A stretch of 64,000 bases of DNA, from NCBI RefSeq assembly GCF_000190635.1, contig NC_015172.1:1302001-1366000 (forward strand). Reading direction: 5' to 3'. The position numbers and the translations under genes were made by a program. The notes beneath the pieces are model-generated. The model was not told the DNA's origin. It ran no database searches and worked only from the letters and a program-made list of their open reading frames with translations. The stretch is from Syntrophobotulus glycolicus DSM 8271 (GTDB lineage: Bacteria; Bacillota; Desulfitobacteriia; Desulfitobacteriales; Syntrophobotulaceae). Positions 1,710 through 49,426 of the stretch are shown one piece after another. How positions within the stretch are numbered: the first letter of the stretch is position 1; every line of letters starts with the position of its first letter.

Positions 1710-2291
1710 ATGAAGGCACTGAATAAAAAAGATCTGATCAACATCGGGATATTTAACGCGGTGGCGGTTGCATTATATTTTGCGATCGGCGTAGCGACAT
1801 CGGGGGTTCCCGTGCTGCATGTTTTCGGGGTCACGCCGATTGCGGCACTCATCAGCGGGGCCATTTATCTGCTTATGGTAATGAAGGTTAAGAAAAAAGG
1901 CGTATTTCTGATATCGGGTATCGTACAGGGGATCGTGTTTTCACTTATGTTGGGCCTGTACGCATCTATTGTGATCATCCCTCTGCTCGGATTTATTGCA
2001 GATATGATCTGCGGGAACTTCAGCGCGAAGAAACTGTTGGTCACAGCTTATGGGATTTTTATGGTTGGCATTTATTATGGTCAGATTTTTTTCATGCTGT
2101 TTTTCACAAAGCTCTACTTATCGTTTTACAGTGGGAATATGCTGGCGCATAAACAGGCTGCAGCCGACAGGATCACGGGACCGATCGTTTTGCTCTTAAC
2201 CCTTATCATCCTTGCGGCCAGCGCCATTGGCGGAGCCCTCGGCTGCCGGATACTGAAAAAACACTTTGTCAAGGCGGGTATTGTATCGTGA
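1710..2291 (+). CDS. MptD/Trep_Strep-type ECF transporter substrate-specific (S) component
   Basis: A 193-residue hydrophobic protein with about five to six membrane spans, starting after a GGGAGAGGG site. The N-terminus KALNKKDLINIGIFNAVAVALY and the later PIAALISGAIYLLM are typical of the Trep_Strep (MptD) family of putative S components. S components bind a vitamin or metal-related substrate and work with an EcfT-ATPase energising module. Here that module is the next gene, which overlaps this stop by four bases, so this is a dedicated rather than shared transporter. The substrate is unknown. The divergent AraC regulator and the palindrome upstream suggest ligand- or metal-responsive expression. 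Confidence 0.85.
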   Translation: MKALNKKDLINIGIFNAVAVALYFAIGVATSGVPVLHVFGVTPIAALISGAIYLLMVMKVKKKGVFLISGIVQGIVFSLMLGLYASIVIIPLLGFIADMICGNFSAKKLLVTAYGIFMVGIYYGQIFFMLFFTKLYLSFYSGNMLAHKQAAADRITGPIVLLLTLIILAASAIGGALGCRILKKHFVKAGIVS

Positions 2292-4501
2292 TACGGCTCA
2301 AAGACATTCGGTTCCGTTTCGAGGGGGAATCCCAATATGTTCTCAACGGCTTGAATTTAGAAATCAAAAAAGGCGAATGCCTTGTTCTTGCAGGGAAAAG
2401 CGGAAGCGGGAAAACGACTGTCACGAGGATTATAAACGGCCTGATTCCCGATTTTTATTACGGAGAGCTTTCGGGAGAGGTTTGGATAGACGGGAAAAGG
2501 ATGCGGGGCCAAGAGCTGTGGAATCAGCCGATTTGCGGCTGCGTGTTTCAAGATCCCCGATCGCAGTTTTTTACGACGAATACGACCAGCGAAGTGGCTT
2601 TCGCCATGGAAAATTTCGGTTTTCACAGGAATGTAATCCGCGATAATCTGGAGGCAGCGTTTACTGATTTGAATATGGAATCCTTAAAGGAGAGGAGCCT
2701 ATTCAGCCTTTCCAGCGGAGAAAAACAGAAGATCACGGTGGCCTCCGCCTATTCCCTTCATCCCCGGATTTTGGTGTTGGACGAGCCCGGCGCCAACCTG
2801 GACTGCGCGACCACGCTGGAACTTGCCAGGATCTTGCGGGAAATGAAGCGAAAAGGGATCACGATTATCGTATCGGAACATCGGCTGCATTATCTCAAGG
2901 ATGTTGCGGACCGGATTGTGGTTCTGGAGCGGGGAACGATATCGGCGGAGATCTCCGCCAATATGTTTTTATCCATTCCAGCAGGATTCTTGAGTTCGTT
3001 AGGCCTACGGGATATCGTGCTGAGGCCTGATAAACAGCAGCCGTTGTCAAATCAGGAGCCGGCCTCGGATGAGAGTCTCCATGTGGGAGCTTCGGAATTA
3101 AAGCTCGACGGAGTTTATTTTTTCTATCGTAAAAATCAGCATGTTATAGGAGGGCTTTCTTTCCTTGCGCATAGCGGTGAAATCATTGGCATCACCGGAA
3201 CAAACGGAACGGGCAAAACAACTCTGATCAAGCTGATATCGGGCATGCTGCCGATCAGGGCAGGCCGGCTGCTGTTGAATGGAAAACTTCAGAACCGAAA
3301 AGATTGCTCACGAAACAGCCATGTTGTGCTGCAGGATGTCGACTATCAACTCTATACAGAAAGCGTGGAGGACGACATCGGTTTAGGCTGGGATGATAAA
3401 AATAAAAGTCAAAAGATTGAGGACATTTTGGAGGCTTTGGGCTTGACTGAACTCCGAGCGCGCCATCCAGGCTCATTGTCGGGCGGGCAAAAACAAAGGA
3501 CAGTTATCGCTTCGGCTCTCGTAAAAAATAAGAAGATCCTGATACTGGATGAACCCACAAGTGGACTGGATTATGAAAACATGCGCAGAGTCAGCCGGGC
3601 CATTCAAAAGAAAGCCGTCGCCGGCGCCATCATACTGGTTGTCTCTCATGACTACGAATTTTTACTGAATATCTGTTCGCGTTTTATTAAGCTGGAAAAC
3701 GGCTGTATCGTCAGAGATGAAAAAGTCATAAACGGCCAGGAACTTTACCAGTGCATGTATGGAAATGGAAATGCCCTGAAAAAGCAGGTGTCAAAACAAC
3801 CCGGCCGAGAGCCTCTTCACCCTCTGACAAAGCTCTTTGCCGTTGCCGCAATAGGGATTTCCGCCTTTATATTTCAGTCATGGCTATCCCTTTTACTTCC
3901 TCTCATGGTATTTACGTTTATCCTGGCCTCCATGAAGGAATACCGCGTTGGATTCGGCATGTTGGCGGCTTTTACCCTGTTTTCCACTCTTAACATTTCT
4001 TTGACCGGTCTTTTCGACGTGCAGGCAACCTGGGGAACTCTTTTTGAGATGATCTACAGAATGATACTGCTGGTGACAGGTGCGGCCGTTTTTTACAAAT
4101 CCACCGAAATAACCGATCTCATCAAGACGTTGTCCGTTTTACCCGAGGAAGTTGTTCTCCCTTTGGCCGTCACACTGCGTTTTATTCCCACCATACAAAT
4201 GGAAATGGGGTCTATTCGGGATTGCCTCAACGCAAAAGGTTTGAGGTATGGGATAATCAGCTGGGTTGCTTCACCCTTGCAGCAGTTGGAATACCAGCTT
4301 GTTCCTCTTTTGATGCGCTGCTCGACCATAGCGGACGAGCTTTCAGCGTCCTGTATGACAAGAGGAATAAACTCCGGAATAAAGAAAACCTCCTACAAGT
4401 CCATGCGGCTGAGGATTTCGGATTTTGTCATGCTTGCCGCAACCGTTCTTCTGCTTACAGCAATGGCATGGATCAATCATTTTGTCACCTGGCCTTTATA
4501 A
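2288..4501 (+). CDS. Fused ECF energising module: two ABC ATPase domains plus EcfT
   Basis: A 737-residue three-domain fusion. Domain 1 (residues ~1-235) has Walker A GKSGSGKTT at 36-44, the ECF-type Q-loop FQDPRSQFF, signature LSSGEKQK and Walker B ILVLDEPGANLD. Domain 2 (~270-490) has Walker A GTNGTGKTT near 304, LSGGQKQR and ILILDEPTSGLD. Residues ~505-737 are an EcfT-like membrane domain with several spans. Most organisms encode these as three proteins; ATPase-ATPase fusions are common (YkoD-type), whereas fusion to EcfT as well is less usual. ATG overlaps the stop of the S component, so the two are translationally coupled. It would power uptake of whatever the MptD-like subunit binds. 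Confidence 0.92.
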   Translation: MIRLKDIRFRFEGESQYVLNGLNLEIKKGECLVLAGKSGSGKTTVTRIINGLIPDFYYGELSGEVWIDGKRMRGQELWNQPICGCVFQDPRSQFFTTNTTSEVAFAMENFGFHRNVIRDNLEAAFTDLNMESLKERSLFSLSSGEKQKITVASAYSLHPRILVLDEPGANLDCATTLELARILREMKRKGITIIVSEHRLHYLKDVADRIVVLERGTISAEISANMFLSIPAGFLSSLGLRDIVLRPDKQQPLSNQEPASDESLHVGASELKLDGVYFFYRKNQHVIGGLSFLAHSGEIIGITGTNGTGKTTLIKLISGMLPIRAGRLLLNGKLQNRKDCSRNSHVVLQDVDYQLYTESVEDDIGLGWDDKNKSQKIEDILEALGLTELRARHPGSLSGGQKQRTVIASALVKNKKILILDEPTSGLDYENMRRVSRAIQKKAVAGAIILVVSHDYEFLLNICSRFIKLENGCIVRDEKVINGQELYQCMYGNGNALKKQVSKQPGREPLHPLTKLFAVAAIGISAFIFQSWLSLLLPLMVFTFILASMKEYRVGFGMLAAFTLFSTLNISLTGLFDVQATWGTLFEMIYRMILLVTGAAVFYKSTEITDLIKTLSVLPEEVVLPLAVTLRFIPTIQMEMGSIRDCLNAKGLRYGIISWVASPLQQLEYQLVPLLMRCSTIADELSASCMTRGINSGIKKTSYKSMRLRISDFVMLAATVLLLTAMAWINHFVTWPL

Positions 4502-6139: not shown

Positions 6140-7396
6140 ATGCAAAATGAAAAATGGATTTTAAGTATTATTATAATGGCAATATTGAGCGTTAGCCTGC
6201 TTGCAGGGTGTGAAAATAAAACAGCCGCAGTATCAGCCGATTTATCTGTCTTACAAACAGACATCAGCACCTTGACTGTATCTGAAAATGTGCAGGTTGT
6301 GGGACTTGGAGAAGCAAGCCACGGCACAAAAGAATATCAACAAATGAAAGCAGAAGTATTCAAGGCATTAGTCGCAAACAATGGCTGTCGAACATTCATT
6401 ATTGAAGGCGACTTTGGCGGAGCATTAAAGGTAGACGCTTATATTCATGGAGCAGAGGGAACCGCTAAAGATGTTGTTGGAGAAATTGGTTTTAATATTT
6501 ATCACACACATGAAATGGCTAATTTGGTGGATTGGATGCGTTCCTATAATAAAGACGCTCCCGAGGGAAAAGACTTGCATTTTTATGGAATGGATATACA
6601 GCGATACGATAACAACAAGGAATACCTGTTTTCCGTATTAGATGTGGCTGCACCGGCGCTAAGTAAAAAATATAAGTCCCTTTCACAATTAACTGATGAA
6701 ACAAGGTTGACATTAAGCGCAGATGTTTTGTATAAGTCTAAAACAGATGTTTTAGGATTGTTGAAAGAAATGGATGCTTCTAAAGCAGATATTGCAGCCA
6801 TTTCTGGGCAAACCGCCTTTGATTTTGCAAGGGAAAGCGCAAATACAATCTATGAATGTAGCGAAATACTGTTAAGCAATAATTCCGATTATAACTCCTT
6901 GCGGGATAAATATATGTCTGAAAAAGTAAACTGGTTTTTACAGCACCGCGATGATAGTGTACTTTTTATTAATGGCCATAACGGCCATATTGGGAAAACC
7001 TCAACTTCCGGCTACACTTGCTTGGGAGAATTACTGACTAAAGACATAGGAAAAAGCTACTTTGCGATTGGGACAGACGCAGAAGATACAGAATTTAATT
7101 CACAAGATAATAATGGGAATTTTAGTGTTATGGAAGTTAAAAATCGAAATGAATTAAATAGTCTACTCTACAATGTTGAGAGAAATTTTTACTATATTGA
7201 CTTCTCAAAAGTGATTGATGATGAAAATTGGCAAAAACTTTTGGACGGACAACAAAAGATTACGACGTTAAACGTAGGAATTTCCGGTTGGCAAAAACTT
7301 TTGAAATCCTTTTATACAACAACCATTGTTCCAAATGATACATTTGATGGAATGATTGTTTTCAAAAAGGTTTCTCCGACAACACTTTGCGGATAA
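6140..7396 (+). CDS. Erythromycin-esterase-family lipoprotein
   Basis: A 418-residue protein with a signal peptide and lipobox LLAGC (Cys24), so it is probably anchored outside the membrane. Erythromycin-esterase (PF05139) blocks are clear: GLGEASHGTKEY (Glu58, His61), FIIEGDFGG (Glu89) and later INGHNGHIG. Ere enzymes hydrolyse the macrolide lactone, but most chromosomal family members act on unknown esters, and few are lipoproteins, so macrolide resistance is only a possibility. It has its own GGAGGGG ribosome site 60 bases after the previous gene. Confidence 0.85.
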   Translation: MQNEKWILSIIIMAILSVSLLAGCENKTAAVSADLSVLQTDISTLTVSENVQVVGLGEASHGTKEYQQMKAEVFKALVANNGCRTFIIEGDFGGALKVDAYIHGAEGTAKDVVGEIGFNIYHTHEMANLVDWMRSYNKDAPEGKDLHFYGMDIQRYDNNKEYLFSVLDVAAPALSKKYKSLSQLTDETRLTLSADVLYKSKTDVLGLLKEMDASKADIAAISGQTAFDFARESANTIYECSEILLSNNSDYNSLRDKYMSEKVNWFLQHRDDSVLFINGHNGHIGKTSTSGYTCLGELLTKDIGKSYFAIGTDAEDTEFNSQDNNGNFSVMEVKNRNELNSLLYNVERNFYYIDFSKVIDDENWQKLLDGQQKITTLNVGISGWQKLLKSFYTTTIVPNDTFDGMIVFKKVSPTTLCG

Positions 7397-14294: not shown

Positions 14295-15434
14295 ATGGGT
14301 AAACGTGATGATTTTAGCAATAAAGTAAAAAAGATACTTGCCCAAAGATGTGCTTATCAATGCAGCAATCCTTCTTGTGAAAAGGTTACAGTAGGCGCGC
14401 ATAGTCAAAATGATAAAGCTGTTTCCATTGGGCGGGCATGCCATATTGAAGCTGCCTCAGAAGGAGGACCTCGTTACAATAAAAATATGTCGCCCGAAGA
14501 AAGGAAATCAATTTCAAATGCCATCTGGCTTTGTGCTTCGTGTGCTGACAGAATAGATAAGGATGAAATAAGATATCCTGTCAAACTCTTGCATGAATGG
14601 AAATCTGATGCGGAAAAAATGATTAATCCTGACAATCACAAGAGAGCAGCAGGAAATAATATTAGGATTGTATCGATCGCCAATACAGCAGGAGGTGTAG
14701 GAAAATCATTTGTAAGTGCTGCAATTAGCGTTGCAATTTCTAAGGTTAAGAGTAAAAAAGTTCTAAGTGTAAGTGCATCTCAATCTAATCATTCTATTGA
14801 ATTTTTGGGTTTAGAAGAAGAAAATAAAAAGGCAGCTCAATATAAACTAAAGGATTGTGCAGTAAAACTTAAAACTTACAATTTGCCTTCTCATCAGAAT
14901 ATAAATGTTGTCTTTTTAAGTGAATTGGAAGAGATTGCTTTACACCAATCAATATCTTTTGGAAGAACAGATTTAAAAAAATTGCTTCATTCTACAGCTA
15001 AAGAAAATGAGTATGAATATATAGTTTGCGACTGTGGCAGGGGCTTGGATACTAATATTCAAAGGGAAATTTTGCTTTGCAGTACAGATGTTATAATTCC
15101 GGTAGGACAGCATAATCATGCATTTCATGGTATGGGCTTGATATGTGACCTATTAAAAAATAGCGAAGCTTGCGAGAATATTTGGACTTTGTACTCTATG
15201 GGATTTCTTACTGCAAATCAGAAGATTAATGTGGGAATGCGCCGAAGATTTCTTGAGAAACAAGAAGTATTCAAAAAATTTAATCTTGAAATAAATGAAA
15301 TAAAAACAGTCGTCCCTAAAAATAGTTATATAGATAAACTACTATGGGAAAAAGAAGATATTTTTAATTGTAATAAACTAAAAGATATCTTCTTTGCTTA
15401 TGAAGAAGTTGTGAAAGAATGTTTTTGTAATTAA
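14295..15434 (+). CDS. HNH-like domain fused to a ParA/MinD-type P-loop ATPase
   Basis: A 379-residue two-domain protein. Residues 1-110 look like an HNH/zinc-finger nuclease module: Cys19, Cys23 and Cys28, then GRACHIEAASEGGPRYN (His50), ISNAIWLCASCADRIDKD (Asn75, Cys80, Cys83) and LHEW (His100). Residues ~122-379 begin IRIVSIANTAGGVGKSFVSA (Walker A 132-139), with YIVCDCGRGLD as a Walker B-like strand and VIIPVGQHNHA after it, the layout of ParA/MinD/ArsA-type ATPases, although the first lysine of the usual KGG-GK motif is replaced by Ala. The gene is AT-richer than its neighbours and stands alone, consistent with transfer. A DNA-targeting or defence function is inference. Confidence 0.8.
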   Translation: MGKRDDFSNKVKKILAQRCAYQCSNPSCEKVTVGAHSQNDKAVSIGRACHIEAASEGGPRYNKNMSPEERKSISNAIWLCASCADRIDKDEIRYPVKLLHEWKSDAEKMINPDNHKRAAGNNIRIVSIANTAGGVGKSFVSAAISVAISKVKSKKVLSVSASQSNHSIEFLGLEEENKKAAQYKLKDCAVKLKTYNLPSHQNINVVFLSELEEIALHQSISFGRTDLKKLLHSTAKENEYEYIVCDCGRGLDTNIQREILLCSTDVIIPVGQHNHAFHGMGLICDLLKNSEACENIWTLYSMGFLTANQKINVGMRRRFLEKQEVFKKFNLEINEIKTVVPKNSYIDKLLWEKEDIFNCNKLKDIFFAYEEVVKECFCN

Positions 15435-26537: not shown

Positions 26538-26550
26538 GGGCTCAAATTGA

Positions 26551-26716
26551 ATATCGGATACAGGTCATGGAAGTTGGGTGTGAATCCCACGCAAGGCCGT
26601 TGCTGTAATTCGCCAATGCATTTGGCATAAGTCACTGGAAGAGATTCCGGGAAGGCGCCAAGGGCTGCGTTTTTGAAGGGAACGCGGGCGATAAGTCAGA
26701 ATACTTGCCTGTTTCC
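26551..26716 (+). ncRNA. Cobalamin (AdoCbl-type) riboswitch
   Basis: The order of conserved blocks is diagnostic: CGGATACAGGTCATGGAAG, then GGGTGTGAATCCCACGC, GGCCGTTGCTGTAA, a CACTGGAAG stretch and finally GCGATAAGTCAGAATACTTG-CTGT, which matches the B12-riboswitch core including the B12 box region. It binds adenosylcobalamin or a related corrinoid and switches off the downstream genes. The presumed output is the terminator at 26834-26864, ~85 bases before the cobaltochelatase gene. Confidence 0.95.
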
Positions 26717-26833
26717 TACTGCGCTTTTTCGCGCGGTGCATATAGCCCTGCGGACTACCGGGGTCATAAATGCGAAGAGGACATGTCTGCCCTTTTATGG
26801 ACAGAGGCATGTCGCGGTTTCGTACATAAACTT

Positions 26834-26864: not shown

Positions 26865-26969
26865 CTTGTCTCGGTTTTGTTTTTGCCGGTGAGAATGTCG
26901 GTTGAATTTTCTCATCAGCGATAAAAGCATAAACAACAAAAAGGGAGAATGGAAAAGGGAGAATGGAAA

Positions 26970-38463: not shown

Positions 38464-38604
38464 ATGCCCGGAGAGAAAAAGCGTCTTCCCAAACGAACCC
38501 CCAAAGAGATGAGGATTTCCGACCGCCGTCCGGCAGAACCGGCCCCTAATCCGCCTCCCCGTCCTGCGGCAGGGGATTGCCCGCGAAAGGAACCGGAACA
38601 ATGA
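38464..38604 (+). CDS. 46-residue basic, proline-rich peptide
   Basis: Starts after CAGGAGGA and overlaps the protease ATG by four bases (ATGA). Composition is dominated by Lys, Arg, Glu and Pro (KKRLPKRTPKEMR ... APNPPPRPAA), so it is probably disordered. The ribosome site and the coupled stop argue that it is translated, at least to bring ribosomes to the protease gene. No function known. Confidence 0.55.
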   Translation: MPGEKKRLPKRTPKEMRISDRRPAEPAPNPPPRPAAGDCPRKEPEQ

Positions 38605-40748
38605 GGCGTCCGCAAGTGCCGCGCCGCCTGCTGATCGGCCTGGCCGGCTGCCTGGCCTGCGCTTTGCTGCTGGCGGTGCTTGCCGGCAGCGTGACCATCG
38701 AACAGGGAAGGAAAACCCGGTCCGGACCGGAGCCTGTCTCCGGACAGAGCCAGAGTCAAAATCAGGACCAAAGCCGGAATCAGGACCAGAGCCAGAATCA
38801 AAATCAAAACCAGAATCAAAACCAGAATCAAAACAAAGATCAAAGCCGAAGCCAGGGCCAAAGTCAGGGCCAAAGTCAGGGCCAAAGTCAGGGCCAAGGT
38901 CAAGGCGCGGCTGCCCCTGAACCGGAGGAGCGTTCCCGGTATGCGGCCCTGTTCGGCGAACCTGAACCGCAAGAGCGGAAGCCTTACACCATTCTGGTCT
39001 GCATGAACGGCAGCAACCTGGAATCGGACTGGCAGATGGCCACCAATGATCTGATCGAGATGTGCGAGAGCGGCTTTGACGGCGAGGCCGTCAACCTGAT
39101 CGTGCTGACGGGGGGGACCCGCACCTGGAACAATCCGGTGATCTCGGCGGAAAAGACAATGGTTTATACGGTTACCCCGGAGGACATCGTCGAGCTGCGC
39201 GATTTGGGAAATGTCAGCATTACGGACGGCGGGCTGCTTACAGCCTTTATCGACTACGGGGTCGCCGCTTTCCCGGCCGAGCGCTATGGCTTTCTGTTCT
39301 GGGACCACGGCGGCGGTCCGATGGGGGGATATGGTTACGACGAAAAATTTGACGGCAGAAGCATGTCTCTGGTGGATCTGGAGACGGGCCTGCAAAACTC
39401 CGTCATGGCCGGCACACCCTTTGAATTCATTGGATTTGACTGCTGCCTGATGGGCAATCTGGAGATCGCCTGTATGCTGGCGCCCTATGCCCGTTACATG
39501 ATTGCCTCGGAGGACCTCGAGCCGGGAAACGGCTGGGATTACAGCTTTCTGGCCAGCCTGTCCGAGCGGCCGGAGATGTCGGGCGCGGAGCTGGGCCGCT
39601 TGATTGTCGACGGCTATATCGCCTACTATGACGCCGGCGGCAGCCGGCAGCCCCAGACCCTGTCCGTTATCGATCTTTCCCTGGTTGGAGAGCTTTCCGA
39701 GCGGACCCAGGATCTGCTGGAAAGGGCTGAAGCATCAATCCTGGCCGGGGATTTTGCCACTTTTGCCGGGGCCCGGCGGAGCGCCCGCACCTTCGGCAAA
39801 ACGGGGGAGACCAGCAGCTACGACCTGGTGGACCTTAAACACCTGGCGCTCAACCTGCGGGAAACATTTCCCGGACAGGCCGCGGCCCTCGTACGGGCGG
39901 TGGAGGAGGCGGTTGTTTATAACCGGGTCGGCCCGGGCATGGAGGATTCCTACGGACTGTCCACCTATATCCCCTATGACCGCAAGGATGTGGCGAGCGG
40001 CTACCTGGATCTGTACCGGCAGTTTCATATTATGCCGCGGACAGAGCGGTTTCTCGGCGCTTATACCAGCAGATTGACCGGTGAGCCGGCCGACCGGCCT
40101 TTCCGCGGTCTTCTGCCTGAGGCGGCCGGGGGAGACATTTCTATTCGGCTGGCCGCCGACGCCCGGGAGGAAGTGGCAGATATCTACTTTACCGTCTGGC
40201 GGCAGCTGGAGGAGGGCAGTGACTACTTTGTCCGGCTGGGAGTGGAGAACGATGTGACCATCGACGGGGACGGCACTGTCACCACCGGTTTTGACGGCTA
40301 CTGGGCTACCCTGGGCGGCAGGACGGCCTGCCTCTACGAGCTGGCCCGCACCGAGACGACGGTTTGGTATTCCACGCCCGCCCTGCTCAACGGGGAGGAA
40401 GTGGACATCTTGCTGCTGTTCGACGAGGACCACCCCGACGGCCTGGTACTGGGCGCAGCCCCCGCGGGTCCGGAGGGCTCCGGGCTTTCCCCCAGGAACC
40501 TGCTGCCCATCGGGCCGGGGGACGAGTTGGCGCTGAGATACCAGGTCCAGCTCTTTCCGAAGGAAGGGCAGGAGCCGGCAGCCGGTGCCGTGGCGAGCAA
40601 GTGGATCACCGGCGAGAGCTTCCCGGCCGGGGAGGATTTGGCCTTTGCTCTGGAACCGGTGGGCAATGAGCTTTATCTTTATGGCTTCTGGATTGTGGAC
40701 ATTTACAATAACAGTTATTATACCGACTTTATTGAGATCAGGTACTAA
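38601..40748 (+). CDS. Membrane-anchored clostripain-family (C11) cysteine protease
   Basis: A 715-residue protein. Residues ~9-31 are one membrane span (LLIGLAGCLACALLLAVLAG), likely leaving the rest outside. Residues ~48-104 are a Gln/Asn/Ser/Gly repeat linker. From ~125 the peptidase C11 fold is clear: ILVCMNGSNLESDWQMATND, then FLFWDHGGGPMGGYG with catalytic His236, and FIGFDCCLMGNLEIAC with Cys282 (Cys281 adjacent). Clan CD enzymes cut after Arg, Lys or Asp and often self-activate. Residues ~515-715 are a beta-rich extra domain. The only evident enzyme in the cluster besides the Hint and DUF6765-type proteins, so it probably processes other cluster products. Confidence 0.9.
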   Translation: MRRPQVPRRLLIGLAGCLACALLLAVLAGSVTIEQGRKTRSGPEPVSGQSQSQNQDQSRNQDQSQNQNQNQNQNQNQNKDQSRSQGQSQGQSQGQSQGQGQGAAAPEPEERSRYAALFGEPEPQERKPYTILVCMNGSNLESDWQMATNDLIEMCESGFDGEAVNLIVLTGGTRTWNNPVISAEKTMVYTVTPEDIVELRDLGNVSITDGGLLTAFIDYGVAAFPAERYGFLFWDHGGGPMGGYGYDEKFDGRSMSLVDLETGLQNSVMAGTPFEFIGFDCCLMGNLEIACMLAPYARYMIASEDLEPGNGWDYSFLASLSERPEMSGAELGRLIVDGYIAYYDAGGSRQPQTLSVIDLSLVGELSERTQDLLERAEASILAGDFATFAGARRSARTFGKTGETSSYDLVDLKHLALNLRETFPGQAAALVRAVEEAVVYNRVGPGMEDSYGLSTYIPYDRKDVASGYLDLYRQFHIMPRTERFLGAYTSRLTGEPADRPFRGLLPEAAGGDISIRLAADAREEVADIYFTVWRQLEEGSDYFVRLGVENDVTIDGDGTVTTGFDGYWATLGGRTACLYELARTETTVWYSTPALLNGEEVDILLLFDEDHPDGLVLGAAPAGPEGSGLSPRNLLPIGPGDELALRYQVQLFPKEGQEPAAGAVASKWITGESFPAGEDLAFALEPVGNELYLYGFWIVDIYNNSYYTDFIEIRY
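38757..38905 (+). repeat. Gln/Asn/Ser-coding tandem repeats in the protease linker
   Basis: Short repeats such as AATCAAAACCAG and GGCCAAAGTCAG (the latter about four times, 38850-38902) encode QNQN then SQGQ units. The repeat keeps the frame and could vary in copy number between strains. Confidence 0.85.
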
Positions 40749-40800
40749 GTGACAGCCCTGCGCACGGCAGGGTGGCAGGCAAATAGAAAGGAGCAATGAT

Positions 40801-41589
40801 ATGACAAAGAAAAATTCGACCGATGCGGAGATCAGGCGGGAAAATCCCGGAGAAGGAGCGGCTTCCTCTCCGGCGGCTGAGAAACTGTTGGGAAAAGATC
40901 CAAGGGCGGAGGTGCCGGTAACGGCGGGCGCTCAGGTGCCGGCCGCGCAGGGAGGCCAGCTTACGGCCCCGGGAGAGGTGAAGAGTCCTTCCTTCGCCAT
41001 GGCGGCTGATCTGACCCTGCTCAATACCGATCTGACCGCTGTGATTGAGCATAAGGAACTGCCCGATGGCAAGGTGAGCACGTCCATCCTGGTCATCCCC
41101 ACCGACGAGCCCAAAGGCGGCATGACGCTGATGGAACTGGTGGAGGAGATTAATGGTATTATCCAGAGCTTCACCAAATCAGCCAGTGCCGTCAATACCG
41201 ATGACATCAAGGAGAGCCTGAAGAGCTTCAAGCTGATTAACCTGGAGGACATCCGGCTGGAGCTGCGGCAGGTTTTCCTCTATTATAAGAAGATTTCGGA
41301 GAAGGAAAGCCCAAACCCCAATCCAAATCCGAACCCCAATCCCAATCCCAATCCCAATCCCAATCCCAATCCCAATCCGAACCCGAATCCAAACCCCAGC
41401 CCCACCCCCACCCCAGCCGTGACTGAATTGGAATATGCGATCAATTTTGTGATTCAGAATAAGGTCGATCCGGCCGAGGATTTGAAAATCTTCAAATTTA
41501 AGTCTCTGTCGGCAGCTATTTGGAATACTTCCCGGCCCAAGATCCTCCAGCGCATGTCTCTGGGCAGCATTGAGGATTTGCTGAAATGA
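40801..41589 (+). CDS. Cluster protein with Asn-Pro repeat linker
   Basis: A 262-residue protein, ATG after AGAAAGGAGC. Residues 1-60 are low-complexity (Ala/Glu/Pro); ~60-165 form a mixed domain (MAADLTLLNTDLTAVIEHKE ... SILVIPTDEPKGGMTL ... DIRLELRQVFLYYKK); ~170-206 are a run of Asn-Pro dipeptides ending SPTPTPA; the C-terminal ~55 residues (LEYAINFVIQNKVDP) are helical. The stop overlaps the next ATG. The segment NLEDIRLELRQVFLYY may dock onto the giant protein encoded next. No known family. Confidence 0.75.
   Translation: MTKKNSTDAEIRRENPGEGAASSPAAEKLLGKDPRAEVPVTAGAQVPAAQGGQLTAPGEVKSPSFAMAADLTLLNTDLTAVIEHKELPDGKVSTSILVIPTDEPKGGMTLMELVEEINGIIQSFTKSASAVNTDDIKESLKSFKLINLEDIRLELRQVFLYYKKISEKESPNPNPNPNPNPNPNPNPNPNPNPNPNPNPSPTPTPAVTELEYAINFVIQNKVDPAEDLKIFKFKSLSAAIWNTSRPKILQRMSLGSIEDLLK
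41310..41412 (+). repeat. AAT/CCC hexamer tandem repeat encoding (Asn-Pro)n
   Basis: About 16 units of CCCAAT and close variants (CCGAAC, CCAAAT), most nearly identical in 41330-41384. Unit length is six, so copy-number change would preserve the frame and only alter linker length. Confidence 0.9.
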
Positions 41590-44372
41590 GTGAGAACGGG
41601 CAAGGCGACGGTCTGCGGCCCGCCAGCTTTGCCCTCCGGACAGAGATGGAGATTGCCGGGCAGCCTTTTGAGGCCATGCTGGCCAAGGTGAATGGGGGCG
41701 TCGTCCTGCGGGCTGTCTGGCGCAACGAGCGGCAGTCCCCCTTCGGGCTGGCCCAGCTGATGGGGCACTTTGCCGCCCGGCTGCCGGCCTTCTTTGCCTG
41801 GGAAATCGTGATCGAGAGCTGTGGGCTGACCTTTTATTCCGCGGATCACAGGGCCGACTTCAAGCTGGCGGTCAAAGACTACGGAGATCTTTCCCTGAAC
41901 ACCCGTCTGGAGGGGGAAAACCGGGCTTACGAGCTGGCCTTCCGCTTGCGGGACCTGCGCTTCCGGCTGGCGGATCTCCCTGTCATCGGCAAGCTGGTGG
42001 AGCCGGGGGACGGCCTCTCTCTTCGCAGCTTCGGGGTCAGCTATACCCCCGGCCGGAGCCTGACCCTGTTTCTGGACGGAGGGGTGGTCCTCGGCGGCAG
42101 CCGGACTGACCTGCCCCTGCGCTACGAGAAGGAGCTGAGCCCGGCCCCGCTCCCTATCCGGGCCGGACAAACCGGCGGAGGGATTGCGGCGGCAACGGAG
42201 GAGGGGCTGGACGCGCCCCTGACCGAGGTCAAATGGTTCAATGTCCAAAAGTCCTTTAAAGGGCTGACCATTCTGCGTATCGGCTTTGTCATGGAGGACT
42301 CCAAGCTCAAGCTGTGCCTCGACGCTCGTTTCACCCTGTCCGTTCTGGACCTGGAATTGTATGAGATGTACGTCACGCTCTCCCTGGCGGGGGACTGGAC
42401 GCTCGGTTTCGGCATTAGCGGACTGATGGTCACGGTGGACAAACCTCCCGTCAGCATCGGCGGCGGCCTGTACAAGGCCCCTCATGAAACACTGTACAAC
42501 GGCAAGCTGGTCCTGAAGTTCGGCAAGTTCGCCCTGACTGCCCTGGGCTCTTACGGCGAGCTGGAGAACGGTACGGCTTCCTTTTTTCTTTACCTGCTGC
42601 TGGGTTACCCGCTGGGCGGGCCTCCCTGCTTTTTTGTGACGGGTCTGGCCCTGGGCTTCGGTGTCAACCGCCGGTTCCGGCTGCCCCGGCTGGAGGAGGT
42701 TCCCTCCTTCCCGCTGGTGGCGGCGGCCATGAACCGGCCGGGCAACGGGCTGACCCCCGCCACCAAACCCGCCGCGGCCCTGAGCGTGCTCAGCGACTGG
42801 ATTTCACCCTCCCAGGGGGATTATTTCGTCACAGCCGGGGTGCGGTTTGAATCCTTCGGCATGGCGGAGAGCTTCCTGCTGGCCACGGTGGAATTCGGCA
42901 GCCGAGTGCGGGTCTCCCTGCTGGGCCTTTCCACGGTCTCAATGCCCCCTCAGGTGCAGGCCGGCAAGAGTCCCATTGCCTATGCTGAACTGGCCCTACG
43001 GGCTACGATTTCCCCTGACGAGGGCATATTCGAAGTTGTAGGCGCACTGACCGGCGAATCCTATATCCTGGACCGGAACTGCCGCCTATCGGGCGGCTTT
43101 GCCTTTTGCCTATGGACCAAGGGCGATCATAAAGGTGATTTTCTGATTACACTGGGCGGCTGCCACCACCCATTGTTCGTCAACACTCACTATCCGGTGA
43201 TGGATAAGGTGGGGGTGAACTGGACCATCGTCAAAGGGCTGACCCTGGTGGCCGATGCCTATTTCGCCCTGACCCCCAACTGCATGATGGCTGGTGCCCG
43301 CTTGGAGCTCGCTTACACCGACGGCAGCTTTCGGGCCTGGGTACGGGCTTCGATGGAGCTGCTGTTGCAGTGGAAGCCCTTTTTCTACGATATTGCGGTA
43401 TCGGTATCCATCGGAGTCTCCTTTATCCTGATTTTTAAGCGGGTCAAGCTGGAGATCGGCGCCGATCTCCATTTGTGGGGCCCTGATTTTTCCGGCAAGG
43501 TGACCATTCACCTGCATATATTCGATGTGACCATCCACTTCGGCAAGCCGCGGGAGCTCCCGCAAGCCCTGGACTGGTCCGGCTTTTACCGCGATTTCCT
43601 GTCCGCTGAAGACGGAAAAAACCGGGCCCTGCGGGCTTCCCAGGGCGCCCAGCTTTGCAGCGTGTACATTTCGGACGGACTGCTGCGAGAGGTGGAGACC
43701 GAGCGGCTGTATGTCATCAATCCCTACCGCCTGCGGCTGACCACTCATTCCAAGATGCCCAGCACCCGCATTCAGCGCCCGGACGGCGGCCTGATCGCCG
43801 CCTGCGGCAAGCCGTTGGGCATCGTGCCGATGGGGAAGACGGCGCTGACCGCGGAACAGACCGTCGCCGTCAGCCGGTTAAAAGGCGGCCAATGGGTCGA
43901 TGTGAGCGGCTGTTTTGGCTTTCAGGAAGAACTGGATAACCTGTCTCCGGCCCTGTGGGGGACCAAGGCGCCCGGGGTTAATGAGCCGCTGATCGACCAT
44001 GTGCTGGTCGGTGTTCAAATCACCCCTTGTCCGGTGGCGGAAGCTTTCCTTCTGCCGGCCGCAGACAGGTGGTATGCGCTGGAAGAATTGCTCCGCCCCG
44101 AAGACTGTTCGGGCAAGGAGACCTCCTGGCGCCAGACGGCAGCGCCGGCCGGGACTGATTACCGAAACCGGAAACCGCTGGCCGCCCTGCGGGACACGCT
44201 GGCTTGCAATGAAAGGCGGGAAGCGGTACTGGCGGAGCTGGAGCGGCGGTTCCATCCCTTGGCCTCTCCCTGTTTCAAGGGCCTGGGCAGGATGCCGGAG
44301 GCCTATCTCAATGCTGAACCCACGCTCCGGACTACCGGGGCGGGGATGCTTAAATCCGGAAGGAGGAGTTGA
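41586..44372 (+). CDS. DUF6603-type giant beta-rich protein
   Basis: A 928-residue protein without signal peptide. From about residue 330 it follows the pattern I recall for DUF6603: YPLGGPPCFFVTGLALGFGV, a FRLP-LEEVP-FPLV stretch, DYFVTAGVRFESFGMAESFL, LDRNCRLSGGFAFCLW, FLITLGGCHHPLFVN, LTLVADAYFALTPNCMMAGA, LLQWKPFFYDIAVSVSIGVS and GADLHLWGPDFSGKVTIHLH. The repeated amphipathic strands suggest a large beta structure. The N-terminal ~330 residues are also beta-rich. The biochemical role is unknown in any organism as far as I know. The name comes from memory and was not searched. Confidence 0.8.
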   Translation: MSENGQGDGLRPASFALRTEMEIAGQPFEAMLAKVNGGVVLRAVWRNERQSPFGLAQLMGHFAARLPAFFAWEIVIESCGLTFYSADHRADFKLAVKDYGDLSLNTRLEGENRAYELAFRLRDLRFRLADLPVIGKLVEPGDGLSLRSFGVSYTPGRSLTLFLDGGVVLGGSRTDLPLRYEKELSPAPLPIRAGQTGGGIAAATEEGLDAPLTEVKWFNVQKSFKGLTILRIGFVMEDSKLKLCLDARFTLSVLDLELYEMYVTLSLAGDWTLGFGISGLMVTVDKPPVSIGGGLYKAPHETLYNGKLVLKFGKFALTALGSYGELENGTASFFLYLLLGYPLGGPPCFFVTGLALGFGVNRRFRLPRLEEVPSFPLVAAAMNRPGNGLTPATKPAAALSVLSDWISPSQGDYFVTAGVRFESFGMAESFLLATVEFGSRVRVSLLGLSTVSMPPQVQAGKSPIAYAELALRATISPDEGIFEVVGALTGESYILDRNCRLSGGFAFCLWTKGDHKGDFLITLGGCHHPLFVNTHYPVMDKVGVNWTIVKGLTLVADAYFALTPNCMMAGARLELAYTDGSFRAWVRASMELLLQWKPFFYDIAVSVSIGVSFILIFKRVKLEIGADLHLWGPDFSGKVTIHLHIFDVTIHFGKPRELPQALDWSGFYRDFLSAEDGKNRALRASQGAQLCSVYISDGLLREVETERLYVINPYRLRLTTHSKMPSTRIQRPDGGLIAACGKPLGIVPMGKTALTAEQTVAVSRLKGGQWVDVSGCFGFQEELDNLSPALWGTKAPGVNEPLIDHVLVGVQITPCPVAEAFLLPAADRWYALEELLRPEDCSGKETSWRQTAAPAGTDYRNRKPLAALRDTLACNERREAVLAELERRFHPLASPCFKGLGRMPEAYLNAEPTLRTTGAGMLKSGRRS

Positions 44373-44373
44373 A

Positions 44374-45657
44374 ATGCCGGAATCACTACGCTTGGCGCCC
44401 AGTTCTCAGCCTGCTCTGACCGAGGGGCGGTATCGTGTCACCGTCACCCAGACGGCCAGCATCGATTGTACCATTGCCCCCGCCTCGCTGGAGTTCTGGG
44501 TTTCCACCGAACAGCTGCGCCTTGGCCCGGACGAGGTCTACTCCACCTATCCGCCTGCCATGAGTGCCGGCCTGTTTGGGGACTGTCTGCCCCATATTAT
44601 CCTGAAGCGTAAAACCCTGCCCTGGGAGCGCAAGCTGGCCGGACTGCCTGAAGACGCTCCCTGGATGGCGCTGCTGGTTTTCTCGGAGGAGGAAGGGGTT
44701 GGTTCCCGCAGCCTTTCTTACCGGGAAGCGGCGGCGGGGCGCGATGGCTTGTATATTCCCCGGCTCCAGCGGAACTGGGCCGACGGGGACGAGGCCTGTG
44801 TGGCCATCGACATTCCCCGGCAGCTGTTCGCCGAGGTTCTTCCCCTGGCCGGGGAGCTGCCGCTGCTGGCCCATTCCCGTCAGGTCAGTCTGGATAACAA
44901 GGTTACCGACGCCACCGTGCAGGAGGGATGGTTCTCCTGTGTCGTGGCCAACCGCTATCCCGACCAGCCGAAGGAGCAGGCCGGCGAGTACAAAAAGCAC
45001 AGCGCGCACCTGGTCTCCCTGGAGGGGTTTGAGGACTACCTGACAGGCGACCGGAGCACCCACCCGCTCAATGCCTGTGATACTGTCCGGATGTTTTCCC
45101 TGGCCAGTTGGTCGTTTTCCGTGCAGAAGGAGCCTTTTGATTTTGCGGCCCTGGCCGGGAAGTTGCGGGCCGCCCCGTTCGGGGCGGAGGCCGGGGAGGG
45201 CTGGGAGAAGATTGCCTCACTGGTCGATCTGGGCTACTGCCCGGTGGAGCACCAGTTCCGGGAGGGCAGCGTCTCGGTCTCCTGGTACCGTTCCCCTTTG
45301 CTGCCGCAAAAAAGCGCGGAGGAGAAACTTCCCCTTTGCCGCTTTGCCGATCAACTCCTGCGCTACGACCCGGAAACCGGCATGTTCGACATCAGCCTGA
45401 GCGCCGCCTGGCAACTGGGCCGGCTACTCTGCCTCCAGAAAAAGGACTTGCCCGGCCAGATTATGCGCTGGCGCCAGCGCAACCGGGAACTGGCCATCCG
45501 GCGGAGCAATGGCCAGGCCCTCAGCGGACAACTGCCGGCAAAAGGAGCGGCCGCCGCGTTGCGCGCCTACAGCGAGGAGACGGTACGGCAGCGTTGTAAT
45601 GAAGAGTGGGCCGGTCTGCTGGCCAGCCTGACCGCGGCCATCGGACTGGACGAATAA
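44374..45657 (+). CDS. Cluster protein with LPH--L--KTLPWER motif
   Basis: A 427-residue protein, ATG after AGGAGGAG, one base beyond the DUF6603-type gene. The N-terminal ~110 residues are beta-rich and contain YSTYPPAMSAGLFGDCLPHI followed by LKRKTLPWERKLAG and APWMALLVFSEEE. I recall a similar order in uncharacterised proteins encoded near DUF6603 genes of Actinobacteria, which could not be checked. The middle has LVSLEGFEDYL and the end is helical and basic (LQKKDLPGQIMRWRQRNREL). Cytosolic unless exported by an unknown route. Confidence 0.75.
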   Translation: MPESLRLAPSSQPALTEGRYRVTVTQTASIDCTIAPASLEFWVSTEQLRLGPDEVYSTYPPAMSAGLFGDCLPHIILKRKTLPWERKLAGLPEDAPWMALLVFSEEEGVGSRSLSYREAAAGRDGLYIPRLQRNWADGDEACVAIDIPRQLFAEVLPLAGELPLLAHSRQVSLDNKVTDATVQEGWFSCVVANRYPDQPKEQAGEYKKHSAHLVSLEGFEDYLTGDRSTHPLNACDTVRMFSLASWSFSVQKEPFDFAALAGKLRAAPFGAEAGEGWEKIASLVDLGYCPVEHQFREGSVSVSWYRSPLLPQKSAEEKLPLCRFADQLLRYDPETGMFDISLSAAWQLGRLLCLQKKDLPGQIMRWRQRNRELAIRRSNGQALSGQLPAKGAAAALRAYSEETVRQRCNEEWAGLLASLTAAIGLDE

Positions 45658-45705
45658 AGAGAGCAATACTTCCGGCCCATCTGTGGGCTGGAAAGGAGGA
45701 ATACA

Positions 45706-46584
45706 GTGACAAACAGCTGGTACCGCGCGCAAGAGGGCGGCGCGAGCTTTTTCGCCTTTTCCCCGGACCCGGCGCCCGGCCGGGACGGCGGCCCGGCGGA
45801 CGACGGATTCAGCCAGATGCACCGGGAAATGGCGGCTATGGCCCTTTTATACGATATTCCGTTCTCCTACCTGGTTCCGGCCGAGGGAATGCTGGAACCG
45901 GAGGAGGTGCGTTTCTTTCACTTAGACCCCAATTGGATCCGTGCCCTGCTGGACGGCGCGTTCAGCATCGGGCGGAACGTGGGGGTGGATACCGCCAATG
46001 ACAGCGCCTATCTGGAGGGGGTGTACGACAAGGCGATGGCCGCCGGCCTAAGTGTCCGGCTCCGGCTCCAGGGCAAACCGGACCTCCCGGTCCTCAAGGC
46101 CGTGAGGCTGGCCAAGAGCAGCCCCTGCACCGGCTTCCTCCTCCGTTCGGAACTGGTCTCCGGCTGGCGGGGATTGGAGTTTAACGCTTACGGAGACAGG
46201 GAGGGTACAGACCCCCTTCCGGCGCTGCGCCTGGAAACCCTGTCTGATGAGGTGCTGATCGGCCTGTATCAGGGAGTGATCGCCCGGCTGGACATTCAAC
46301 AGCCCCCGGAAGGCTTCCACTTTGGATTTAACAGCACCGACGGCAAGCTGAGCAAACGGCTGCGCAGCCTGAGCACCGGCGCCCTGGATGACGGGCGGGC
46401 GGAGATTCCCATCCGCCGGCGGGGCAACCGGGTTGTCGATTTTGCCGACATCGCGGCGGCGATCGGAAAGGAGCTGGGCATGGCGCCCGGGGAGACGGTC
46501 ACTTCCGCTCACCTGGCGCTCCAGATGATCCAGAATCCCCACAGAATTGTAATACGAATAGGAGAAGGAGATGAACAGAGTTGA
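45706..46584 (+). CDS. Cluster protein with RFFHLDPNWIRALLDGAFSIG motif
   Basis: A 292-residue protein starting with GTG after AAAGGAGG. Key segments are MHREMAAMALLYDIPFSYLV, EVRFFHLDPNWIRALLDGAF, a SGWRGLEFNAYGD segment and the C-terminal IPIRRRGNRVVDFADIAAAI. The RFF-LDPNWI-AL-DGA-SIG block is distinctive and recalls an unnamed family that accompanies large uncharacterised clusters. No catalytic triad is evident. The stop overlaps the next gene's TTG start. Confidence 0.75.
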   Translation: MTNSWYRAQEGGASFFAFSPDPAPGRDGGPADDGFSQMHREMAAMALLYDIPFSYLVPAEGMLEPEEVRFFHLDPNWIRALLDGAFSIGRNVGVDTANDSAYLEGVYDKAMAAGLSVRLRLQGKPDLPVLKAVRLAKSSPCTGFLLRSELVSGWRGLEFNAYGDREGTDPLPALRLETLSDEVLIGLYQGVIARLDIQQPPEGFHFGFNSTDGKLSKRLRSLSTGALDDGRAEIPIRRRGNRVVDFADIAAAIGKELGMAPGETVTSAHLALQMIQNPHRIVIRIGEGDEQS

Positions 46585-48311
46585 AGATTACCGTGAGCGA
46601 GCGTACCCTGATTCAGGAGGCCCTGACCAACGGCGGCTCCGTCCAATTGGACTTTTCCCGGGACATCCACTACCGTTTTTTCATGGACAAGGCGGGTGGC
46701 GAAGAGGTTTTCCGGCGAAGCTGTCCGGCCATGTATAAGAATATCCAGAACCAGCGGCGGACCCGGCAGGTCCGGCAGGAAGAAGACCTCTCCAGGGCCA
46801 TCGGCAAAAAACCGGCTGTCACCCCCGGCGCCCGCAAGCTGCAGAGCGGCCAACAAGACACGGTTTTCATCATGCCGCCTCACGCACTGTCCGGAGCCGC
46901 CTCCGCGGAAATGGATGTTTTCTCCACCCTGGTGGGCGAGTTCCAGCAGAACAAGACCAAGATTCTTGCCCAATCCTACATAGTGGACAGTGATACCGGG
47001 GAGATGACAGGCATCGAAGCGAAGGACTACCTGGAGACCAACCAGTTCGTCAAACCCCTGTCTGTGCGGCTCCGGAAGGCGACGGTCAGCAATCTGGTCA
47101 GTGTGGGCGTCGTGACGGTACCCCAGATGATGCGGGGTGAGCCTACCCTGACAACCGAGTACACCGCGTCCCAGAATGCTGTCTGTATCACTGATGCGGA
47201 CATCATCAAGGATTTTCGGGTAGTGGACCCCAGAAAGAAGCTCCAGACCCATCCCGAGACAATCCGGGTTTCCTACAACCGCAACCAGCAGGTTCCGGAT
47301 GCCGACTACAGCATCCCCAATATGCCGGACGCCAATCAGACCATCTCTCTCAAGCTGCCGGTGCAGCTGGTAGTGGAGGTCAAGGAGGGCTACCGCATCA
47401 AGGGGATTGCCCGCAAGGAAGGCTGGAAGCTCTTTTTCAAAACCCCGCTGGGCGGGATGCTACGCCATATGGCCACGTATAAAGACCTGGAGGAGTATGA
47501 GGCGGAGTTTACGGACGACACCGGCAAGAAGATTAAGGTCAAAGGGATCTATGTATCCGAGGACGGGCGGAGGATCGTGATCACCATGCCTCTGGACTGG
47601 AGCAACCGCTTTGATTTTTCCACCCTGACCAATAAAGTCAGCGTCGATTTGGACATTTACGGCGACTACTACATCAGCATCGACGGTGGGGATTTGGGCG
47701 TGTTCGCCCAGCCGGTGAACTTCGCCAGCTATCAGGACACGAAAGAATCGGCCGCCACCAAAAAGGTGCCCAAGCTCTACTTCCAGTGGGGCTGCCTCGC
47801 CGCCGGCACCCTGATTACCCTGGCGGACGGGGGAAGCCGGCCCATCGAGGAGCTGCGCATCGGTGACCGGGTTCTCTGCGCCGGCGGGGGCGGGCGGATG
47901 ATCCGCAATATTACGGTGGGTATGGAGGAACAGATCCTGAAGCTGACGACCCGCGGCGGCCGGCACCTCCTTTTGACCGGGATGCACACCGTGTTTACCG
48001 CCGAGCGGGGCCCGATCCCCGCCGAGCACCTGGAGGCGGGCAGCACCGTTTACACCGCCGAGGGTGAGGACACGGTGGCCGCTGTGGAGCGGCTTCCTTA
48101 CAATGGCAGGGTCTACAACCTGGAGTTTGAGACGGAAACCTGGCTCCTGGCCGGCGGTATCAAGGTCGGCGATTACGCCCTCCAGCAGACCGTCCGCCTG
48201 GAGCGGCCGCTCGAACCGGCGGAGGATCACGCCGAAATCCGGGCGATGGCCGCTGAGCTGAAAGCGCTCTTAGGCACGGTGACACAGGCGAAGGGGAGGG
48301 AAGAGAAATGA
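46581..48311 (+). CDS. Cluster protein with C-terminal Hint (hedgehog/intein-type) self-processing domain
   Basis: A 576-residue protein starting with TTG that overlaps the preceding TGA. Residues 1-400 are unassigned and contain IRVSYNRNQQVPDADYSIPN and beta-rich segments. Residues ~405-545 are a Hint domain: Cys405 in GCLAAGTLITLADG, RPIEELRIGDRVL, the B-block LKLTTRGGRHLLLTGMHTVF with Thr and His, and the final VYNLEFETETWLLAGGIKVG. The terminal His-Asn of inteins is replaced by VGDY, so the N-S shift and thioester cleavage could occur but not full splicing. This would release or attach the N-terminal 404 residues. A 30-residue tail follows. Confidence 0.85.
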   Translation: MKITVSERTLIQEALTNGGSVQLDFSRDIHYRFFMDKAGGEEVFRRSCPAMYKNIQNQRRTRQVRQEEDLSRAIGKKPAVTPGARKLQSGQQDTVFIMPPHALSGAASAEMDVFSTLVGEFQQNKTKILAQSYIVDSDTGEMTGIEAKDYLETNQFVKPLSVRLRKATVSNLVSVGVVTVPQMMRGEPTLTTEYTASQNAVCITDADIIKDFRVVDPRKKLQTHPETIRVSYNRNQQVPDADYSIPNMPDANQTISLKLPVQLVVEVKEGYRIKGIARKEGWKLFFKTPLGGMLRHMATYKDLEEYEAEFTDDTGKKIKVKGIYVSEDGRRIVITMPLDWSNRFDFSTLTNKVSVDLDIYGDYYISIDGGDLGVFAQPVNFASYQDTKESAATKKVPKLYFQWGCLAAGTLITLADGGSRPIEELRIGDRVLCAGGGGRMIRNITVGMEEQILKLTTRGGRHLLLTGMHTVFTAERGPIPAEHLEAGSTVYTAEGEDTVAAVERLPYNGRVYNLEFETETWLLAGGIKVGDYALQQTVRLERPLEPAEDHAEIRAMAAELKALLGTVTQAKGREEK

Positions 48312-49414
48312 ACGCATGCTTTCACTACTTCGCGGTCAAATACATGGCCGTCCGGGCGGGCTTCAGCCCGGAGGACAGCCAAATCATCGCCGAATACAGC
48401 CAGTTCCTGGATGATTGCACCCGGGAGATTGAGGTGCGGGTGGACGAGAGTGCCCTTCCGCAGGATATCATGGAGCGGGAGCTCTTTACCTATACGGACA
48501 ATCACTGCTGTATCTACATTCCCAAAACGGCGGCTCTCCGCCGGGAAGAGGTAGCAACAGAGGAGGAGTGGCTGGAGGATATTCTGGCCGACAGCACCTG
48601 GAAGTATGCCTTGCTCCCGTTTCACTACCTGCCGCCGGTGCCGCTGACAGACGCCGCCATCGAGGCCGCCGATCCCCGCAATGATAATCTTTTGACTGAG
48701 GATATCCGGGACCCGGAGGGCCACGCCGTTTTCGGCGGTCTGCTGGCCGGCACGGTCGAAGCCGTTCACGCGGCAGGGAAACCTTCTCCCGGAAAACCCT
48801 CTCCTGCCGAGCCTCTGATCCGGGCCGGCGTGCTCTGCCATATTTTGGCCGACAGCTTTTCTCATTACCTGTTCAGCGGCCTCAAGCATGTCACCAATGA
48901 GGTAAAGCTCATGGAGATCCGGGACTGCCAAAATCAGGCCGACCTGACCAAGCGCTACGATCCCCGGGTCCTGAGCAGCAGGCCGGCGGTCGGGTGCCTG
49001 CAGGCGGGCAGCGCCATGGATGATAACGGGATCATGGGCGGCCTGATCCGGCAGACCCGTTTCGGCTATACCTTCAACAACCGGGAGAAGACCGAGGACG
49101 CCGCCGAGCGGATTCTGCGCTTTTTCTTCCGCTGCCGGAATGTCCCGGTGGACCCGGCGAACGAGACCCTGATCAAGAACACGGTGGCCGCTATCCGGGA
49201 ACTGACGGATTCTTCCCCGGTCGCTTTTACCCCGGAAGGGATAAAAGCTCTGGCCCGGAAGTGGACGGACAGGACCGGCCTTGCCTACGATTATGACCGG
49301 GACCGGGTGCGGGAGCGCCTCATGAAGAGTGACGCGGACGGGCGGCTGGAGGAACTCTGTCGTTTCAACATTGTGGTGGATGACGTCCAGCGGGCCGTGC
49401 TGGCGGACTATTGA
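48308..49414 (+). CDS. DUF6765-type, zinc-phospholipase-like protein
   Basis: A 368-residue protein overlapping the Hint gene by four bases (ATGA). The N-terminus MNACFHYFAVKYMAVRAGFS, EDSQIIAEYSQFLDD, then LLPFHYLPPVPL and GVLCHILADSFSHYLFSGLK carry the spaced His and Asp residues of DUF6765 and, more distantly, of phospholipase C/S1-P1 zinc enzymes (His6, the DD pair, FH and H--AD-F-H). This suggests a three-metal hydrolase site. No signal peptide, unlike secreted phospholipases. Substrate unknown; it could be an effector of the cluster. Confidence 0.75.
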   Translation: MNACFHYFAVKYMAVRAGFSPEDSQIIAEYSQFLDDCTREIEVRVDESALPQDIMERELFTYTDNHCCIYIPKTAALRREEVATEEEWLEDILADSTWKYALLPFHYLPPVPLTDAAIEAADPRNDNLLTEDIRDPEGHAVFGGLLAGTVEAVHAAGKPSPGKPSPAEPLIRAGVLCHILADSFSHYLFSGLKHVTNEVKLMEIRDCQNQADLTKRYDPRVLSSRPAVGCLQAGSAMDDNGIMGGLIRQTRFGYTFNNREKTEDAAERILRFFFRCRNVPVDPANETLIKNTVAAIRELTDSSPVAFTPEGIKALARKWTDRTGLAYDYDRDRVRERLMKSDADGRLEELCRFNIVVDDVQRAVLADY

Positions 49415-49426
49415 GGAGGGATTTTG

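Follow-up and report, generated by a model that had tools for sequence, protein, structure and literature searches.

The window, a stretch of 64,000 nucleotides that spans positions 1302001-1366000 of the single-contig chromosome of Syntrophobotulus glycolicus (3,406,739 bp), carries a gene whose product joins an HNH nuclease-type domain at its N-terminus to a ParA/MinD-fold domain at its C-terminus. The coordinates of the gene, of its two halves and of the residues discussed below are collected in Table 1. The G+C content of the fusion gene is 33.7%, compared with 46.4% for the genome, a value reported for the type strain chromosome (PMC3156405), and the AT-richness noticed in the original prediction, which had been drawn from the letters of the window, is thus borne out.

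Table 1. Features of the fusion gene and its product, with positions counted from the first nucleotide of the window.
Feature	Position	Strand	Basis or remark
Shine-Dalgarno-like AGGAA	14284..14288	+	6 nt 5' of ATG, direct sequence reading
HNH - ParA-like fusion gene	14295..15434	+	ATG start, 379 aa, one intact ORF
Cap5-type / PDC-M68A-type HNH domain, residues 1-112	14295..14630	+	PADLOC, Cap5 chains, fold match
First zinc pair C23-x4-C28	14361..14378	+	kept in 40/40 relatives
His50, putative HNH general base	14442..14444	+	40/40 relatives
Asn75 of HNH motif	14517..14519	+	40/40, partly fixed by search pattern
Second zinc pair C80-x2-C83, then Ala84	14532..14543	+	C80 40/40; position 83 C35/H5
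Asp88	14556..14558	+	invariant in relatives, kept in aligned Cap5 chains
Linker, residues 113-121	14631..14657	+	low confidence, pLDDT <50 at 112-120
ParA/MinD-fold domain, residues 122-379	14658..15431	+	Pfam AAA_31, Foldseek, VIA-align
P-loop TAGGVGKS, residues 131-138	14685..14708	+	Ala132 for signature Lys; Lys137, Ser138 kept
Walker A' region SVSASQS, residues 158-164	14766..14786	+	both Asp of D-x-D-P-Q lost
Walker B + switch II YEYIVCDCGRG, residues 240-250	15012..15044	+	Asp246 kept

The ten neighbouring ORFs were scanned with Pfam. On one side of the fusion gene lies a peptide/nickel-type ABC transporter operon in divergent orientation; on the other side is a small predicted lipoprotein, beyond which come genes for a methyltransferase, ThiM and a flavin reductase. 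No defence gene was found among these ten ORFs, nor were repeats or a tRNA found that would delimit a mobile element around the gene, and with metabolic neighbours and no such marks a defence island at this site is ruled out. Counterparts of the flanking methyltransferase and of the solute-binding protein were absent, at the cut-offs used, in 24 relatives from the family; because of this absence we read the region as accessory, and the low G+C content of the gene fits the same description. The setting typical of defence islands that the original prediction had proposed is therefore not found, while its defence flavour stands, given that the HNH module is that of Cap5 and PDC-M68A and is carried by genes on mobile elements.

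Several other features of the window were observed. A block of ~17 kb (38577-56255) has a G+C content of 57-64%, compared with 46% for the genome, and encodes a clostripain-family peptidase (Peptidase_C11), a DUF6603 protein and several large proteins of up to 1152 aa without a Pfam match. A cobalamin riboswitch (26545-26726; Rfam RF00174, 68.6 bits) lies upstream of the ORF at 26949. An erythromycin-esterase family protein (6140-7396) and a protein with two ABC ATPase domains (2288-4501) are encoded a few kb apart; judged at the level of Pfam only, the latter is possibly of the ABC-F type, and the two genes together may serve antibiotic tolerance.

The original prediction had proposed a profile search of each half, and such searches recovered both, the ParA-like half by Pfam (AAA_31) and the HNH half by PADLOC but not by Pfam, which found no HNH domain in the fusion protein. 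Over residues 4-113, the PADLOC matches to HNH effectors range from 1e-17 to 1e-28, with PDC-M68A as the best (1.8e-28), followed by Cap5-type endonuclease effectors (7.1e-19) and SAVED_HNH (4e-18). Solved relatives detected by sequence are an HNH endonuclease (9om4) and the SAVED-HNH proteins 8ysq, 7rwm and 8fm1, with Cap5 chains matched at 5e-7 to 2.5e-3. An AlphaFold2 model built from an alignment deep in HNH sequences has a mean pLDDT per block mostly of 84-97 for residues 1-110, and Foldseek places this model with chains of the activated Cap5 tetramer (8fmf, 4.6e-7; 9dif, 1.2e-6). C23, C28, H50, N75, C80 and D88 are invariant in 40 aligned relatives of the HNH half; the search patterns partly determined the columns GPRY, N75 and W78, and C23, C28, H50, C80 and D88 were free of them. 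The histidine, the asparagine and the zinc cysteines (C23, C28, C80 and C83) on which the prediction of an HNH domain rested are all present. The site of the classical third HNH histidine is occupied by Ala84, but an alanine, serine or glycine is found there in 38 of the 40 relatives, and as a family trait it gives no ground for considering the active site degenerate.

For residues 122-379, Pfam returned AAA_31 (1.4e-14) and CbiA (1.6e-6), a second model built from a ParA-deep alignment matched Soj in Foldseek (2.6e-11), and VIA-align gave Z scores of 19.6 to MinD and 19.5 to Soj. The closest sequence relatives of this half are the Soj/ParA partition proteins; a weak match to RT_UG33 (0.005 to 0.017) was put down to chance. 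These results, together with the string AGGVGKS and its Ala132, confirm the predicted ParA/MinD-type half without the signature lysine. The analysis adds a loss that had not been predicted, namely that of both Walker A' aspartates, replaced by Ser160 and Ser162. Among 27 ParA relatives from viral contigs the signature lysine is present in 26, and aspartate occupies both positions 160 and 162 in all 27; ordinary ParA proteins of Bacillota all read KGG and D-x-DPQ. Lys137 and Asp246, on the other hand, are common to the window protein and all 27 viral-contig relatives, and Asp246 is followed by C-G-R-G instead of C-P-P/S-x.

The signature lysine is also missing from McdA (SGGQGKT) and BcsQ (PMC9178275), and since McdA is a very active ATPase without it (PMC6328274), the loss of this lysine does not by itself prove inactivity. 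Walker A' aspartate mutants of Soj and McdA have been solved, one of them bound to ATP (8jml, 6nop). Because both Walker A' aspartates and the signature lysine are gone in both known fusion proteins (see below), and because the mutant structures include an ATP-bound one, the likeliest state of the ParA-like half, as read from its residues, would be one in which ATP is bound and not hydrolysed. The same losses make the ATP-dependent cutting of the original prediction, in its usual sense, doubtful. A ParA-like half that lacks these residues could also serve purely as a scaffold for protein binding.

HNH patterns were run against 84,980 species genomes and brought up 359 relatives; among the best 80 of these a single protein, from the Paenibacillaceae MAG SIG286 (L045, 378 aa), matches the window protein from end to end, with 41% identity over residues 1-377. 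Its P-loop reads NAAGGVAKS, the Walker A' aspartate sites carry serine and alanine (SVAQ), and the string YIVCDCGRG is identical in the two proteins. Ala136 in this P-loop does not count as an additional loss, since some ordinary Soj proteins read KGGVAKT. Because a full-length homolog exists at 41% identity, an assembly or start-site artefact is excluded, and so is a chance juxtaposition of the two halves. The HNH halves of both fusions form one group (98/84), and the two-member family likely had a single origin. Between the two proteins the HNH half is 58% identical and the ParA half 37%, so that the ParA half diverges faster than the HNH half, as the sensing halves of defence proteins commonly do.

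A third fusion was not found in 74 genomes of the order, in phylum-wide sets of 398 and 397 genomes, in 341 genomes of the class to which L045 belongs, or in plasmids, phages and viral contigs, with L045 among the queries used for the plasmids and the viral contigs. With the C-terminal half as query, there were zero plasmid matches at 1e-5, and the plasmid matches of L045 are confined to its HNH part. The HNH-ParA pairing is real and extremely rare, with two full-length cases found, in keeping with the claim that this is not a standard architecture; more members may exist, as the scan was pattern-based and covered the best 80 of 359 relatives.

The gene for L045 is likewise solitary, having rlmD on one side and an unrelated reverse-strand gene on the other, with no defence gene beside it among the listed ORFs of the locus and no tRNA found there. 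In six of the best 80 loci, L045 and also L052, L054, L062, L071 and L081, the HNH gene is preceded by an rlmD-type RNA uracil methyltransferase gene (5729-7090 in L045), and the methyltransferases of the other five are 33-37% identical to that of L045. The HNH proteins encoded at these loci differ in their C-terminal halves, and the rlmD neighbourhood may be a hotspot at which HNH defence genes insert.

The HNH module itself is widespread on other proteins. It occurs together with NACHT, NCAB2 and HEAT (L110), with AAA_16-TPR (L124), on P-loop-bearing proteins (L025, L027, L029) and with many partners that have no domain assignment. This spread over NACHT, AAA-TPR, WD40 and other partners is as would be expected of an interchangeable nuclease module. 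In a deltaproteobacterial MAG (L083:7640-8905) the module is joined directly to a WD40 propeller, an unusual pairing of effector and sensor, and in L051:4789-5796 (L055 and L059 are similar) it accompanies the C-terminal part of the PADLOC candidate PDC-S50 (1.7e-36). The module is present on 194 plasmids and among the cargo genes of phages, one such site being the Z-region of the P2-EC46 prophage. There it is carried by ORF2 (L031, AJ512680, 488-1594), which is annotated as a lysogenic conversion protein; with a C-terminal half that has no domain assignment, this ORF is a candidate prophage-borne defence gene.

The 134 neighbours of other HNH loci include matches to type I methylases, SIR2, DRT, Shedu, SoFic and AbiEi, as well as transposases; they are given as occurrences, with no claim of enrichment, and most of the neighbours are ordinary genes. 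The original prediction had proposed a survey of neighbourhoods for defence genes; defence-type matches were found near other carriers of the HNH module and none beside either fusion gene. The prediction had also named, as what would speak against it, homologs with no HNH profile match and no defence or mobile context; what we observe are PADLOC matches and carriers on plasmids and in a prophage.

From the domain identities, the residues kept and lost, the two-member family and the repeated reuse of the HNH module, all identified in this analysis, we infer nuclease activity, nucleotide binding without hydrolysis, an oligomerization switch and a role in defence. The reading that we prefer, and to which we assign a probability of roughly 0.5, is that of a defence protein encoded by one gene, with a Cap5-type HNH DNase gated by a ParA-like regulatory half; as far as its sequence can tell, it is probably a solo anti-phage or anti-plasmid DNase with abortive action. 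The HNH domains of Cap5 are packed in dimers; when a ligand binds the C-terminal domain, a change from dimer to tetramer follows and turns DNA cutting on (PMC8568899, PMC12804361). In the fusion protein, the N-terminal HNH domain would be a DNA-cutting effector of this type, and the C-terminal half would be its regulator, with a nucleotide held by the intact P-loop and Walker B and probably left unhydrolysed; nucleotide binding and dimerization are here assumed from the fold. The ParA fold is a natural nucleotide-dependent dimerizer. Since it dimerizes on nucleotide, a Cap5-like nuclease with SAVED swapped for a ParA-like switch is the simplest reading. The self-association surface of ParA would keep HNH domain pairs in place or rearrange them, and an invading phage or plasmid would supply a trigger, be it a protein partner, DNA or a nucleotide change, that binds the ParA-like half and alters the assembly. 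The HNH domains might then reach a cutting geometry and DNA would be degraded, with the infected cell killed or stalled, or the invader cleared. Against this reading stand the absence of defence genes beside either fusion gene and that of the third HNH histidine, although the latter extends to the whole subfamily; two members of the fusion family are also too few for co-occurrence statistics.

The solitary position of the gene amid metabolic genes, the missing signature lysine and Walker A' aspartates, and the rarity of the fusion would also suit a decaying or neutral protein, or one with a role outside defence such as chromosome maintenance or regulation. We consider this unlikely, because two divergent copies (41% identity) each keep an unbroken reading frame of 378-379 codons, share their substitutions, and are identical in the residues for zinc, in His and Asn, in the P-loop Lys and in Walker B, a pattern that decay would not leave. 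Elsewhere the HNH module turns up in defence genes and in genes of mobile elements, which argues against a non-defence role.

If the protein does act on DNA, its ParA-like half could deliver the nuclease in a manner other than the gating that we favour. With ATP bound, ParA dimers bind DNA non-specifically, and a Soj Walker A' aspartate mutant was crystallized as a dimer (PMC9178275); with both aspartates naturally absent, an ATP-locked half might tether the HNH domain to DNA, giving a restriction- or repair-like nuclease with no specific trigger. We give little credence to such a tethered enzyme, as neither fusion gene has a methylase or immunity gene beside it. A constitutive nuclease requires a partner that shields the host DNA. 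Another form of gating, no less improbable in our judgement, is a guard or decoy for partition systems, a ParA mimic that is engaged by the ParB of an invading plasmid or phage-plasmid, or by another partner of ParA, and so frees the nuclease. The nearest sequence relatives are indeed partition proteins, and a ParA-derived domain that lost its hydrolysis residues and kept its fold is what a decoy would look like, but two sequences are too few to judge whether a ParB-binding face is conserved.

The boldest reading, which we put forward as a speculative idea with a small chance of being right, is that of a ParA/MinD-fold pseudo-ATPase, a non-hydrolysing mimic of a partition ATPase, that may act as an immune receptor, sensing the segregation machinery of an invader or the state of its DNA and gating the fused Cap5-type DNase. 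To our knowledge, such a ParA-based principle of sensing has not been described for bacterial immunity. If the ParA-like half is the trigger, bacteria would have turned partition ATPases into immune switches, and their monitoring of the partition systems of invaders would become directly testable. Lacking both the signature lysine and the Walker A' aspartates, the protein also offers a natural test of what a ParA fold does when unable to hydrolyse ATP.

Among described systems, Cap5, the HNH-SAVED effector of CBASS, resembles the fusion protein in its N-terminal HNH domain of the same family, in having a C-terminal regulatory domain and in its overall length. The two differ in that Cap5 has SAVED where the fusion protein has AAA_31/ParA (Pfam; fold Z 19.6), which rules out membership in Cap5, and in that the aligned Cap5 chains keep the third HNH histidine where the fusion protein has Ala84; no CD-NTase gene of the kind that accompanies Cap5 was found by Pfam among the ten neighbouring ORFs. 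The PADLOC candidate PDC-M68A is matched only over positions 4-110 of the 253 in its profile, ending at residue 112, and with the remainder of the model unmatched by the ParA-like half, membership is ruled out. The same is the case for Shedu (SduA, DUF4263 nuclease), whose model is matched over the HNH half only. With Soj/ParA and MinD the protein shares the fold, the P-loop Lys and Ser and the Walker B Asp, but unlike them it carries a nuclease-type domain and lacks the signature lysine and both Walker A' aspartates; no ParB gene, as in ParABS, was present among the Pfam-scanned neighbours in the window, and none was recognized by eye in the ORF list of L045. McdA, the ParA that positions carboxysomes, is also missing the signature lysine; it has no nuclease, and it keeps the Walker A' aspartate, as can be told from its D38A mutant, which was solved as an ATP complex (6nop).

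The HNH-NACHT, HNH-WD40 and HNH-AAA-TPR proteins (L110, L083 and L124) have the identical type of N-terminal HNH module as effector, but their regulatory halves are STAND-type, propeller or repeat domains where the fusion protein has the ParA fold. A search of the open-access literature gave no publication that combines a ParA-like protein, HNH and an anti-phage defence system, which is an absence of evidence only, and we know of no described defence protein with the HNH-ParA pairing. We rate the fusion as a known effector module, the Cap5-type HNH, with a new regulatory domain, the ParA fold. The ParA/MinD fold thus joins SAVED, NACHT, AAA-TPR and WD40 as regulatory halves of one interchangeable HNH module.
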